From Desulfobia sp. (GTDB lineage: Bacteria > Desulfobacterota > Desulfobulbia > Desulfobulbales > SURF-16): DNA of 10,400 nucleotides. Made by a program: the position numbers and the translations under genes. How positions within the stretch are numbered: position 1 is the stretch's first letter; each line of letters opens with the position of its first letter. Location: positions 1 through 10,400 of the forward strand of contig JAUWDC010000015.1 in the NCBI GenBank assembly GCA_030608985.1, in the 5' to 3' direction. Positions 5,879 through 9,873 of the stretch are shown here, piece after piece. Under the pieces are notes generated by a model. That model had not been told where the DNA came from, did no database searches, and saw nothing but the letters and a program-made list of their open reading frames with translations.

Positions 5879-6682
5879 ATGATAATGTGTATGATGAGAC
5901 TGATAGTAAGCTGGAAATTTTGTAAAAAGATAAGGAGCCTTTTGTTTTGTCTGTTTATGGCCGTGGGGGTGCAAGCAACGACTTTCTGCATTGCTTTGGC
6001 CAATGAATTTCCCTTTTCAGTAGGAGAGAAATTGACATATGAACTCAAATGGGGGCTCGTCCCGGCAGGAGAGGCATCCCTTGAGGTACTACCGAACGAA
6101 ATCATTGATGGAGTAGAAGGGCATCATTTTCGGATGACGACGAAAAGCAATTCCTTTGTTGATGTTTTTTATAAGGTAAGAGATGTGGTTGACGGGTATA
6201 CCGATTTGACTGTGAGCCGCTCCCTTCTCTATAAGAAAAAACAAAATGAAGGGTCCACCAAAAGGGACATTCTTGTTACCTTTGACTGGAAAACAAATCA
6301 GGCTCGCTACTCTAATTTTGGCAAGACAAAGAAGCCTATTTCCATCAGTGACGGGGCATTCGATCCATTTTCAGTTCTTTATTATTGTCGCCTTTTTAAT
6401 TTTGAGACGAATACGGATATTGTTCGACCTGTTACCGATGGAAAGAAAATTGTAACAGGCGTGGCAAAATTCAAGGGTCGTGAATATATTAAAATTAATG
6501 GCATCAGGTATGATACCTTTTTGATCGAGCCTGAAATTGAGCATATCAGTGGTGTTTTCAAGAAAAGTAAAAAAGCGAAAATACAGATATGGTTGACCGC
6601 CGATAATCGGAGGATTCCCGTGAGGATAAAAAGTAAGGTTGTTGTCGGGAGCTTTGTCGCAGACCTTGTAACTATTCACTAG
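5879..6682 (+). CDS. Exported DUF3108 domain protein, C terminus altered by a MITE-like insertion
   Basis: This 267-residue protein has an N-terminal export signal (hydrophobic core about 20-41, ending ALANE) followed by a DUF3108 domain. The start FPFSVGEKLTYELKWGLVPAGEA (44 onward) is the family signature, and the C-terminal IWLTADNRRIPVRIKSK matches the usual end. DUF3108 proteins are periplasmic, mostly beta, and of unknown biochemical role. The start could be any of Met1, 3, 5 or 6 (ATG at 5879, 5885, 5891, 5894), as no strong ribosome site discriminates. The last three codons and the TAG lie inside the inserted element at 6668. Without it, the frame would continue from Val264 as EKTVTDQ and stop at TAA 6851-6853, giving 271 residues. 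The domain itself is intact, so the protein is probably still functional. Confidence 0.85.
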   Translation: MIMCMMRLIVSWKFCKKIRSLLFCLFMAVGVQATTFCIALANEFPFSVGEKLTYELKWGLVPAGEASLEVLPNEIIDGVEGHHFRMTTKSNSFVDVFYKVRDVVDGYTDLTVSRSLLYKKKQNEGSTKRDILVTFDWKTNQARYSNFGKTKKPISISDGAFDPFSVLYYCRLFNFETNTDIVRPVTDGKKIVTGVAKFKGREYIKINGIRYDTFLIEPEIEHISGVFKKSKKAKIQIWLTADNRRIPVRIKSKVVVGSFVADLVTIH

Positions 6683-6818
6683 CATCTCATCTTCGCCCAT
6701 CTCGGCCTTCTCGAATAGCATAAGTATGCGTCGAAGCCCAAATGAACGAATATGAGGCACTATTAAACAGTTACAGTGCGAGTTAATCGCACCTTATTGA
6801 AATTTGCTGAATAGTTAC
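6668..6818. mobile_element. MITE-like non-coding element 1 (151 bp) with terminal inverted repeats and target duplication
   Basis: The ends are GTAACTATTCA (6668-6678) and TGAATAGTTAC (6808-6818), a perfect 11-bp inverted repeat. Directly outside are CAGACCTT (6660-6667) and CAGATCTT (6819-6826), an 8-bp direct repeat with one mismatch, as expected of a target-site duplication. No transposase is encoded. The core (6668-6678 plus 6756-6818, 74 nt) matches element 2 in this window in size and order of parts; 6679-6755 looks like a later nested palindrome. An internal hairpin GTGCGA/TCGCAC lies at 6776-6792. GTAA termini with 8-bp duplications are established traits of IS66-family elements, so an IS66-type transposase in trans is a plausible but unproven mobiliser. 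Element 1 overlaps the 3' end of the DUF3108 gene. Confidence 0.8.
6679..6755. repeat. Imperfect palindrome nested in element 1
   Basis: CTCAT-n-TTCG-nn-CAT near 6686-6700 mirrors a matching block ending in ATGAG at 6756. The centre folds perfectly as GCATA-AG-TATGC (6717-6728), flanked by CGA and TCG. The intervening stem has several mismatches and a one-base shift. Element 2 lacks this block, where the left terminal repeat runs directly into GGCACT, so it appears to be a separate insertion. The exact junction may be one base either way. Confidence 0.6.
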
Positions 6819-6833
6819 CAGATCTTGTCGAAA

Positions 6834-6873
6834 AAACTGTTACTGACCAGTAACAGTTTCCAACATTTTTTTT
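6834..6873 (+). terminator. Terminator-like hairpin plus T-run after the DUF3108 gene
   Basis: AAACTGTTACTG (6834-6845) and CAGTAACAGTTT (6848-6859) form a perfect 12-bp inverted repeat with a 2-nt centre. Eight T residues follow at 6866-6873. The stem is AT-rich and the T-run starts 6 nt after it, so this is a weaker than ideal intrinsic terminator. In the reconstructed ancestral DUF3108 frame, the stop TAA (6851-6853) lies inside this stem, which fits a gene-end terminator. A protein-binding operator for the downstream glutamate synthase operon is the alternative. Confidence 0.5.
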
Positions 6874-6937: not shown

Positions 6938-7005
6938 TTGACAAGGTTGTTGTTTCGATGTAATCAATTTTGGTTCTGGTATGCTCGTCTGCTGCCCTTG
7001 GCAGC
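6938..7005 (+). promoter_or_regulatory. Candidate promoter and leader hairpin of the glutamate synthase operon
   Basis: TTGACA (6938-6943) is a perfect -35 box. The best -10 candidate is TGTAAT (6959-6964), five of six matches but with a short 15-nt spacer; TAATCA (6961-6966) gives 17 nt but matches less well. A small perfect hairpin GCTGCC-CTT-GGCAGC follows at 6991-7005 in the presumed leader, 54 nt before the first ATG. I looked for a sigma-54 site (GG and GC ten bases apart) and found none convincing here. Confidence 0.35.
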
Positions 7006-7058
7006 CTTACACATATCACAATATAAACTTTAAACCTTTTCAATTTAAGGAGAACATA

Positions 7059-8201
7059 ATGTGCCGGTTAGCGTTAAAGACCGCCAGTGAGCCGTTTTCT
7101 CCCTACACTGTGCTCCAGGCCATGGAAGCAATGCAGGAAGGATATGATGGCAGTGGCCTGGGTCTTCTTCTGAGAGGACTCGACTTTACTGATTACAGTT
7201 ACAAGGCCGGGGACCCAATTCTTTCAGGGATTGCCCATACTGAAGAGGCCTTCCACCGGCTTGGAAGCTTCATGCAGGACAGGGGGTTTGAGCTGAAATA
7301 CGATCATGAATTTGAAACGGATCTCTCCAAGATAGAGGCCAAGGATAGGCATAAATATATTCTCAGGGTGTATAGAAGGCCTGAGGCCTGGAAGAGTCTC
7401 TCCGAGGATGAGGTAGAGCTCCAGATGATGCTCACCAGGATTGCCCTTCGAAAAGATGGAGAAGAACATGGCGGGGACCTCACCGCATTTTCCTTTTGGC
7501 CGGATGTGGCCATGATTAAAGAAGTGGGCTGGCCGCTTAATGTGGGTGAGGCACTTGGATTAGACAGTCATCGTATAAAATCTCGGGTCTGTATGGCCCA
7601 GGGACGTCAGAATACCAACTGGGGAATCAACCTGTATGCCTGTCATCCATTTTTTATCCAAGGCATAGCCACCATGACTAATGGAGAGAACACAGCCTTT
7701 CTTCCAATCAAGGACTGGCTGAGCGGTAAGGGTTTTCCGGGTTATATCGGCTACCAGTCAGACAGTGAGGTCTTTGCCCATATTCTGCACTATACTGTCA
7801 GGCAGCTGAAATTGCCTCTTGAGGCGTATAAGCATATCATTACTCCTCTGAAAACAGAGGAATTAAAGGATCATCCCCAGGGTGATTTCCTGCTGGGACT
7901 GCGCAATGTCTGTCGTCGTCTCATAATAGATGGACCCAACGCGGTAATCGCTACTTTGCCGGATGAAACCTGCATGCTGGTTATGGATGCCAAAAAACTG
8001 CGTCCGGCTACCATTGGCGGAAAACCAGGTGAATGGGCGATTGCCTCGGAAATGTGCGGTGTTGACGCCATGATTCCAGACCGGGATCCTTCATTAGATT
8101 ATCAACCAATGCGTGAGCATACAATTATTGTACCTCCAGACCGACAGGAGTTTCAGATATGGTCTCAATTCGATCAGTTCCCTCTACCCCAAGCGGCTTA
8201 G
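7059..8201 (+). CDS. Glutamate synthase, glutamine amidotransferase (class II) domain subunit
   Basis: This 380-residue protein is the stand-alone glutaminase part of split glutamate synthase. It releases ammonia from glutamine for the FMN subunit. The start is ATG at 7059, with AAGGAG 7 nt upstream. This puts Cys2 right after the initiator Met (MCRLALKT), as needed for the N-terminal nucleophile of class II amidotransferases. A longer reading frame from 6981 would bury this Cys and has no ribosome site. Family motifs are GYDGSGLGL near the N terminus, TNGEN at 207-211 (oxyanion region) and SDSEV at 234-238. Its end overlaps the next gene by 43 nt, which suggests coupled synthesis. It heads an operon with the other two glutamate synthase domains. 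E. coli has all three in one GltB chain. Confidence 0.9.
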   Translation: MCRLALKTASEPFSPYTVLQAMEAMQEGYDGSGLGLLLRGLDFTDYSYKAGDPILSGIAHTEEAFHRLGSFMQDRGFELKYDHEFETDLSKIEAKDRHKYILRVYRRPEAWKSLSEDEVELQMMLTRIALRKDGEEHGGDLTAFSFWPDVAMIKEVGWPLNVGEALGLDSHRIKSRVCMAQGRQNTNWGINLYACHPFFIQGIATMTNGENTAFLPIKDWLSGKGFPGYIGYQSDSEVFAHILHYTVRQLKLPLEAYKHIITPLKTEELKDHPQGDFLLGLRNVCRRLIIDGPNAVIATLPDETCMLVMDAKKLRPATIGGKPGEWAIASEMCGVDAMIPDRDPSLDYQPMREHTIIVPPDRQEFQIWSQFDQFPLPQAA

Positions 8202-9799
8202 CAGCCGGGGATTTTCCCTGGATCATTGAGCATCGGGAAGACCGATGCACACTGTGCGGCCGATGTACAGCAGTCTGCCCGGTTAATGCCATTAAGCTGA
8301 CGTATATGCGGCAGCGTATGCCAAGATTGGTACTCTCTTCAAGCGAGCGCGGGAGCTCCTACCGTACATTTGTTGGTATACGACAAAGAACGGAAGCAGC
8401 CAACCGCTGCATTGGCTGTGGTACCTGCGAGAAAGTGTGTCCGAACCAGGCTATCAAACCGCAGCCGAATACAGTGTCCGAGCGTCACCGTTTTATTAAT
8501 ACAAAAGGTGGTGAGGCATGGAAACGCGGCGGTCGTAAAAATGAGCCTGGCCCAAGTCTCCTTGATAAAATTATTTTCAACAGGATCTCCATGCTGACTG
8601 ATCCTGCTCTTGATGCCGGGCGCCATGAGTTCAGCGTGAATACTCTGCTGGGTCGCGTACTGTCGCCGGAAGAATATCTGCGGAGAAAGATGACAGGAGA
8701 GTGGATTCCGCCGGTGAGAGAGATTTTCCCTTTCATTATTGGTTCCATGTCCTTCGGCGCCTTGTCTCCAAATATGTGGCTTGGGCTTCTACAGGGCGTG
8801 GCCTATTGTAACGAGGTTCTCGGTATTCCTGTTGTCATGGCCACAGGTGAGGGCGGATGTCCTCCCTGGGTCCTGAAAAGTCCGTTTCTGAAATATATTA
8901 TCCTGCAGATTGCATCCGGGTATTTTGGCTGGGATGAAATTATTCGCGCCATACCGGATATGCAGTGTGATCCGGCAGCCATCGAGATCAAGTATGGCCA
9001 GGGTGCAAAACCGGGCGACGGCGGACTTCTCATGTGGTTCAAAGTAAGCAAGCTGATAGCCCGCCTGCGAGGTGTTCCCGAGGGTATTGATCTTCCTTCA
9101 CCTCCGGTTCACCAGACACTCTATTCCATTGAAGAGTCGGTCATGAAAATGGTCCAGTCTCTGTCAATGGCATGGGATTTCAAGGTACCTGTCTATCCGA
9201 AGATCTCCGGTTCCAACTCGGCTAAATCCGTTTTGAATAACCTGGTAAGAAATCCATATGCTTCTGGACTGCTTATTGATGGTATCGATGGCGGTACCGG
9301 TGCAGCATACAACGTCAGTATGGACGCCATGGGCCATCCGATCGCGTCAAGCGTTCGTGAATGTTACCTCGATTTGTGTGCCCAGGGTAAACAGAATGAG
9401 ATTCCGATTTTTGCCGCCGGCGGTGTTGGCAAAAATGGTAATGTTACCCAGAATGGCCTGGCGCTCATTATGCTGGGTGCCAGTGGTGTTCATATGGGTA
9501 AATATATCATGCAGGCTGCCGCCGGTTGTCTCGGCAGTGAACAGAATCGTTGTAATGTATGTAACGTTGGTATCTGCCCGAAAGGCATAACCAGCCAGAA
9601 CCCCAAACTCTACCGCAGGCTCGATCCCGACTTGGTCGCTGAGCGTGTTGCAGAAACCTTCATGGCTATCAATACCGAAATGAAGAAAGTCTTGGCACCG
9701 CTGGGACGATCTCAGAGTCTGCCCATCGGAATGTCTGATGCCATTGGCATAGCTGATAAGGCAGCAGCCGATCAGCTGCAGATTAAGTACGTTTGTTAG
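8159..9799 (+). CDS. gltB: Glutamate synthase, ferredoxin plus FMN-binding synthase domain subunit
   Basis: This 546-residue protein is the catalytic core, which makes glutamate from 2-oxoglutarate and ammonia. An N-terminal bacterial ferredoxin module carries two 4Fe-4S motifs: C30, C33, C36, C40 and C84, C87, C90, C94. The FMN-binding TIM barrel follows, with GSMSFGALS at 195-203, TGEGGCPPW at 229-237, KYGQGAKPGDGG, and IDGIDGGTGAAY. Near the end are C465-x2-C468-x4-C473 followed by PKGITSQ, the place of the 3Fe-4S cluster; the E. coli type spacing is C-x5-C-x4-C. ATG at 8159 has AGGAG 8 nt upstream inside the previous gene, so the 43-nt overlap is real. This ferredoxin fusion is typical of archaeal and Desulfobacterota enzymes. 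Its last stop base (9799) is supplied by the inserted element 2. Confidence 0.93.
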   Translation: MVSIRSVPSTPSGLAAGDFPWIIEHREDRCTLCGRCTAVCPVNAIKLTYMRQRMPRLVLSSSERGSSYRTFVGIRQRTEAANRCIGCGTCEKVCPNQAIKPQPNTVSERHRFINTKGGEAWKRGGRKNEPGPSLLDKIIFNRISMLTDPALDAGRHEFSVNTLLGRVLSPEEYLRRKMTGEWIPPVREIFPFIIGSMSFGALSPNMWLGLLQGVAYCNEVLGIPVVMATGEGGCPPWVLKSPFLKYIILQIASGYFGWDEIIRAIPDMQCDPAAIEIKYGQGAKPGDGGLLMWFKVSKLIARLRGVPEGIDLPSPPVHQTLYSIEESVMKMVQSLSMAWDFKVPVYPKISGSNSAKSVLNNLVRNPYASGLLIDGIDGGTGAAYNVSMDAMGHPIASSVRECYLDLCAQGKQNEIPIFAAGGVGKNGNVTQNGLALIMLGASGVHMGKYIMQAAAGCLGSEQNRCNVCNVGICPKGITSQNPKLYRRLDPDLVAERVAETFMAINTEMKKVLAPLGRSQSLPIGMSDAIGIADKAAADQLQIKYVC

Positions 9800-9873
9800 T
9801 AATTGTTCAGGCACTCCTGAACAATTACAGTACGGTGGTTTTGCTAATTTTGTAGCACCACCTGAATGGTTAC
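9799..9873. mobile_element. MITE-like non-coding element 2 (75 bp) between two glutamate synthase genes
   Basis: The terminal repeats GTAATTGTTCAGG (9799-9811) and CCTGAATGGTTAC (9861-9873) match at 10 of 13 positions when inverted. Flanks GTTTGTTA (9791-9798) and ATTTGTTA (9874-9881) are an 8-bp direct repeat with one mismatch. Inside, a 13-bp perfect hairpin (9799-9811 with 9816-9828, loop CACT) is followed by a second hairpin, GGTGGT and GCTA (9834-9846, TTT bulge) with TAGC and ACCACC (9853-9862). Positions 9808-9834 match element 1 at 6754-6780 in 21 of 27 bases. No T-run follows, so it should not be an efficient intrinsic terminator, but the stem-loops will sit in the operon mRNA. The ribosome site of the next gene lies outside it. 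Confidence 0.8.

Follow-up and report, generated by a model that had tools for sequence, protein, structure and literature searches.

Members of the IS66 family of transposons are characterized by 8-bp target duplications and GTAA-type ends. For two of them, ISPpa5a and ISPpa7, the figure 8 stands in what appears to be the direct-repeat column of a published table (PMC3281130). MITEs (non-autonomous DNA transposons) derived from IS66 are, like the element analyzed here, short and gene-less, with inverted repeats starting with GTAA, 8-bp duplications, and ends common to longer IS66-type elements, whereas the element of the order Desulfobulbales described below also has a long covarying hairpin, unmatched in the IS66 elements examined here, and an internal copy of its end. 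ERIC, NEMIS/Correia, and RUP resemble it as short palindromic repeats of comparable size but differ in ends, hosts, and duplications, and are set apart by description. In a further source, ERIC and NEMIS are termed MITE-like, and REPINs and REP palindromes appear as palindromic mobile hairpins with compensatory changes, as in the present case (PMC3116915); unlike REPINs, the Desulfobulbales element has 8-bp duplications and GTAA ends, and its copy number shows no correlation with Y1 transposases. The MITEs of the sulfur bacterium Candidatus Thiomargarita nelsonii are also dispersed, mostly intergenic, and hairpin-bearing, but are reported to be part of a group I intron, and are likewise set apart by description; neither 'IS66' nor 'target site duplication' occurs in that text (PMC4853749). 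A search of the literature on MITEs of Desulfobulbales and cable bacteria, IS66 MITEs, and DruA found no published account of this family.

A MITE copy at the 3' end of a DUF3108 gene

The window, that is, the whole 10,400-nt stretch of Desulfobia sp. DNA analyzed, contains at positions 6668–6818 (plus strand) one copy of a MITE family found in the order Desulfobulbales. The family combines ends of the IS66 type with a hairpin body conserved in structure. The 151-bp copy in the window, which carries no gene, is bounded by perfect 11-bp inverted repeats, GTAACTATTCA (6668–6678, plus) and TGAATAGTTAC (6808–6818, minus), and flanked by two target-site copies equal at seven of eight positions, CAGACCTT (6660–6667, plus) and CAGATCTT (6819–6826, plus), all at the coordinates of the original prediction. 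The left terminal repeat doubles as the base of a 107-nt imperfect palindrome (6668–6774), assigned to the minus strand, whose fold is the more stable of the two (−49.4 kcal/mol, z −8.4, as against −26.1 kcal/mol, z −3.4, for the plus strand). An internal copy of the end (TAAACAGTTAC, 6764–6774, minus) forms the closing arm of the hairpin, and the 44-nt tail (6775–6818, plus) closes with the terminal repeat once more, so that the end sequence occurs three times per element, at the left end, the hairpin closing arm, and the right end. The element exceeds a plain MITE in possessing both the covarying 107-nt hairpin and a tail with its own end copy.

The DUF3108 gene as now read (5879–6682, plus) encodes 267 amino acids and matches the PF11306 profile in a Pfam search (E 4.3e-39, residues 53–264). 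Its product now ends VADLVTIH, with the VTIH residues derived from the element and the stop codon TAG at 6680–6682 lying inside it, in accordance with the predicted TIH terminus and element-supplied stop. Because the PF11306 match extends no farther than residue 264 of the 267, the altered residues lie beyond the DUF3108 domain; VTIH and its stop substitute for residues past the domain, the original 3' end staying downstream, and the insertion is probably near-neutral in the window. That stranded end presumably corresponds to VEKTVTDQ plus TAA (6827–6853, plus): joining of the flanks past the second 8-mer gives VADLVEKTVTDQ with a TAA stop at 6851–6853, as had been claimed. However, the restored frame, offered previously as evidence of insertion, carries no independent weight, because excision of any insertion together with one target copy restores the frame by definition. 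A terminator-like palindrome had also been placed at the old stop; a 12-bp palindrome with a T run after it does overlap it (6834–6859, strand unassigned), whereas a terminator scan found none, leaving a possible terminator at most. Farther downstream, a 406-amino-acid frame ahead of a glutamate-synthase-like gene (window 6981–8201) has no Pfam or NCBIfam match at E 0.001.

The DUF3108 protein was matched in 42 of the 58 genomes searched, the own genome included. Candidatus Desulfobia pelagia (JACNJZ010000094, order Desulfobulbales), the sole other genome of the same genus in the set and the source of the one empty site compared, has a protein match of 74% identity over residues 17–264. Its frame ends VADLVDGGL with the element absent, and the DNA on either side of the site is collinear with the window in pieces of 73–88% identity. 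Of the relative that had been envisaged, lacking the element and ending like EKTVTDQ, the empty site and the VADLV stretch were borne out and the tail was not; as the relative ends in DGGL and only VADLV is common, we infer, rather than observe, the EKTVTDQ tail. The same sequence in all relatives, named beforehand as speaking against an insertion, was not encountered, the Candidatus Desulfobia pelagia site being empty. The empty site supports an insertion event in the lineage of the window.

Further copies, anticipated for the genome, were found as 21 DNA matches in its 1.69-Mb assembly, a number that includes the window copy and counts some copies split in two. GTAACTATTCA occurs there exactly 40 times, compared with once for its reversed control. 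The 12-mer end GTAACTATTCAG is present in 40 of the 58 related genomes (own included), with 229, 137, and 122 occurrences in the richest three, and its reversed control occurs at most twice in any genome; the element DNA was matched in at least 15 of the 58, with no more than 14 first-look candidates scored per genome. From the fetched loci, 102 physical palindrome copies were recovered, which represent the best matches rather than all copies, and 12 without GTAA/TTAC ends or flanks were dropped, leaving 90 to be scored for target duplications. Exact 8-bp duplications flank 39 of these, and duplications with one mismatch another 16, where random pairing of left and right flanks would give 0.05 and 0.39, respectively; the other 35 copies have no duplication within one mismatch. 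Exact repeats at the chosen ends number 39 at length 8, one each at lengths 4–7, and none at 9–12. The 55 duplicated copies lie in 54 distinct targets, consistent with the differing 8-bp flanks predicted, and the target sequences are 71% A+T; 46 of the copies are 150–156 bp long, two are 108 bp (the hairpin without the tail), and seven are 170–180 bp, some of the last with a nested tiny element. The family thus exhibits terminal inverted repeats kept in the copies, fixed-length but varied duplications, dispersal, no transposase gene, and an empty site. Three observations support the original reading of the locus as a true MITE-type insertion: the multi-copy terminal repeats, the copy-specific 8-bp duplications, and the collinear relative without the element.

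A preference of the element for gene 3' ends was considered and is not claimed: 22 of 47 copies lie near a stop codon, compared with 3.9 expected at random positions, but the excess shrank to 23 of 42 copies against 17.4 expected when positions outside genes were used. An orientation lean, which rests on crude open-reading-frame calls, remains: of 36 tail-bearing copies, 28 have the hairpin side turned toward the closest 3' end, as do 18 of the 23 that lie near a stop (p 0.011).

Covariation and strand bias of the hairpin

For the covariation analysis, the 76 copies of suitable length among the 102 were thinned to below 93% identity, and the 57 remaining were aligned by sequence alone and scored against the fold of the window copy's minus strand, which has 44 stem pairs. 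In these 57 copies, 90.6% of the stem cells are paired, compared with at most 45.8% in slid controls, although on this measure the scored structure is favored over its slid versions because it came from one of the aligned sequences. Twenty-eight of the 44 stem pairs have changed on both sides. Double-change cells number 184, whereas shuffling leaves 42.6 and the slid controls never exceed 60. Parsimony on a FastTree tree gives 56 double Watson–Crick switches, versus 1–19 for the slid structures. Wobble pairs are distributed unequally between the strands: G-U cells number 426 for the minus strand as against 56 for the plus strand, a cell count inflated by relatedness among copies; the same lean is seen in all 57, and G-U is the commonest minus-strand pair at six stem pairs. 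Counted as parsimony changes, the wobble amounts to 81 versus 38, and the slid controls lean likewise in five of six slides (mean about 26 versus 20). The strand-biased wobble argues, though not decisively, for constraint on one folded strand over mere palindrome symmetry. Taken together, the compensating changes and strand-specific wobble suggest that a folded single strand, either RNA or single-stranded DNA, is probably under selection.

Paired changes in palindromes are also known to arise when the arms correct each other through intrastrand template switching or gene conversion. The arms may therefore have been kept symmetrical by such a process with the hairpin itself unselected, and the paired changes described above would be obtained equally in that case; however, correction of this kind would erase mismatches equally on both strands, whereas the one-strand wobble persists (426 versus 56 cells), and we regard this explanation as rather doubtful. 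Structured RNA, a single-stranded transposition intermediate, and arm correction are the candidates for the cause of hairpin retention. A tentative possibility, less likely than not, is that the hairpin constitutes a structured module of about 107 nt, made of RNA or single-stranded DNA of one particular strand, which covariation has preserved throughout Desulfobulbales and an IS66-type transposon has disseminated. If so, the terminal repeat would be both a transposase-bound end and the base of a functional stem, and end and stem would co-evolve.

Among the 14 listed tail-bearing copies whose hairpin end departs from GTAACT, base 5 matches the internal arm in 12 and the outer end in one. A general rule that the hairpin end resembles the internal arm more closely than the outer end was rejected, since among 50 copies it is closer to the arm in 16, farther in 22, and equal in 12. 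Searches of seven loci with copies against the Rfam covariance models at E up to 1 gave no match at the element and only a tRNA outside it. An attC-like site was rejected by eye, against what we take to be the attC consensus.

A probable relation to IS66 and DruA transposons

We consider it likely that the locus is jointly explained by a MITE insertion, an IS66-family transposase as the likely mover, and a hairpin kept under probable selection. On this view, the non-autonomous transposon entered the DUF3108 gene behind codon 263 and duplicated 8 bp of target. The enzyme acting on it in trans would most probably be an IS66-family (DDE) transposase, of the DruA+TnpC or TnpC-only type, that recognizes GTAA-type ends. 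Such an enzyme would bind these ends, cut, and insert with an 8-bp stagger, the duplications being the observed part of this scheme and the enzyme the presumed part. The outer base of the hairpin is the terminal repeat itself, and the hairpin is followed by the tail, whose own end copy would supply a further right end. The tail-less 108-bp copies with duplications (two of the 55) suggest that both hairpin bases can serve as ends.

PF03050 was matched in 26 of the 58 genomes, PF05717 in 12, and PF14236 (DruA) in 11; the own genome, 70.5% complete, has no match to any of the three. The IS66 elements resolved here end in GTAAGCG, GTAACT, or GTAAATATTCGG, and 8-bp duplications with GTAA-type ends are found as in an IS66-derived element, but full-length partners with the same ends are found only in other Desulfobulbales genomes. 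Two of these, both with PF03050 and NCBIfam IS66 matches, carry the MITE's type of ends, judged by their terminal sequences: L171, a TnpC-only element (ends GTAACTATCCAG, target duplication GAATATTT), and L186, a DruA+TnpC element (ends GTAACTGTTCAG, target duplication ATTTTATT). A search of ten longer regions around IS66 matches recovered only the L171 element again. In a second DruA-bearing IS66 type, L404 (2490 bp), GTAAATATTCGG stands at both ends, the same motif lies beside DruA in genome G025, and one MITE copy, L246, has exactly this rarer variant at its ends. No matching target duplication was found for L404, and the TnpC matches of genome G037, in two pieces with an internal stop, indicate that the L404 element may be dead. 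A 396-bp copy in G010 (L199) has a DruA fragment between MITE-type ends and, by eye, no target duplication. The hairpin model has no match in L171, L186, L193, or the classical IS66 elements tested. L186, L193, and L404 are IS66-family elements with a DruA gene (PF14236) beside TnpC; no published DruA-carrying IS66 transposon was found in the literature search, and the text of PMC3733652 contains neither 'Desulf' nor GTAAGCG.

Classical three-gene IS66 elements with TnpB were rejected as the direct source, the resolved examples (L162, L163, and L185) ending in GTAAGCG, unlike the window copy, and the occurrence of TnpB matches in only 12 of the 58 genomes also counts against them. In genome G015, a search for an intact mobilizer led to a 3.4-kb stretch between opposed end motifs (L384), which holds a 1027-amino-acid frame and was set aside. 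Five contigs of that genome (C6, C28, C32, C36, and C37) begin inside the MITE hairpin, as judged from the first 50 bases of each contig, suggesting that many near-identical copies break the assemblies.

Across the 58 genomes, MITE counts show no correlation with IS66 counts (rho 0.17, p 0.20) and a weak one with DruA counts (rho 0.32, p 0.013, uncorrected), and only seven of the 12 genomes with at least ten end motifs have an IS66 or DruA match. As copy numbers do not track IS66 and track DruA only weakly, the IS66 assignment is probable rather than demonstrated. A transposase of another DDE family with GTAA ends and 8-bp duplications might instead move the MITE, in line with the lack of a PF03050 match in G010 and G002, two of the three genomes richest in the motif. 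Yet an IS66 transposase is encoded in every longer element found with these end variants, and 8-bp duplications flank two such elements. The MITE-rich metagenome-assembled genomes are fragmented, as the G015 contigs illustrate; with IS66, DruA, and Y1 as the mobilizer families searched, we judge a mover outside IS66 to be unlikely. REPIN-like movement, in which a Y1 (RAYT/TnpA-REP) transposase would mobilize the palindrome in the form of a single-stranded hairpin, is far less probable still. To our knowledge, RAYT elements leave no target duplication. The palindromic body with compensating changes does recall REPINs as described in PMC3116915, and Y1_Tnp was matched in 54 of the 58 genomes, own included, but Y1 and MITE counts are uncorrelated (rho 0.16, p 0.22), and the varied exact duplications in 39 of 90 copies indicate staggered double-strand cutting; with 55 of 90 copies duplicated within one mismatch, the REPIN-like reading is largely refuted by the duplications. 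A chance inverted repeat at a normal gene end, to which the modest 11-bp length and the flanks equal at only seven of eight bases might point, is refuted and of negligible probability, given the many dispersed copies, the empty site, and a scan for perfect 11-bp inverted repeats separated by 40–600 nt and having flanks that agree at seven or more of eight bases, which returned one hit in the window and none in 300 first-order Markov windows.

If the joint explanation of an IS66-mobilized MITE with a selected hairpin is right, a family with hundreds of end-motif copies shapes the intergenic DNA and gene ends of sulfur-cycling Desulfobulbales, DruA-carrying IS66 transposons are linked to MITEs, and a structure-level constraint on a mobile element can be read from many copies. 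The family would moreover include a cultured species in which expression and transposition can be tested.

Distribution of the family and other small repeats

Among cultured species, the family reaches Desulfurivibrio alkaliphilus AHT2 (single contig), in which four of 13 fetched copies have a duplication within one mismatch. Two copies in this genome, L350 and L352, have 9-bp target duplications instead of 8-bp ones. The covariance model of the hairpin, R1, scanned with 13 candidates scored per genome under stricter filters, has matches at E up to 1e-4 in at least six of 297 genomes of the phylum, namely, five of the same order (own included) and a sixth with a single weak match; in the same draw, seven or more further genomes of the order have no R1 match. 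Weak R1 matches are not counted as copies, because the model also weakly hits a short plain palindrome at 9799–9828 in the window (E 0.002).

Several MITE copies contain still smaller repeats. Tiny 18–28-nt sequences of the form AGGTAAGCG-variable-GACTCCG lie at varying positions inside copies (L012, L035, L020, L258, L261, L010, L262, and others). This pattern occurs in 37 of the 58 genomes, with up to 291 copies, and its reversed control has one match in all 58; in genome G004 there are 160 copies of it and none of the MITE 12-mer, and its counts are uncorrelated with Y1 transposases. The repeats look like very small independent mobile elements. A second tiny insert, CTATAACAG-CGAAGCG-GTGTCAT, lies near the hairpin loop in L030 and L025. 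Finally, an element of about 240 bp (L028, 1501–1740) shares the GTAACTATTCAG end, yet its interior differs and contains an inverted repeat of its own; its flanks, CTTATTGA and CTTATTAA, are by eye equal at seven of eight positions.
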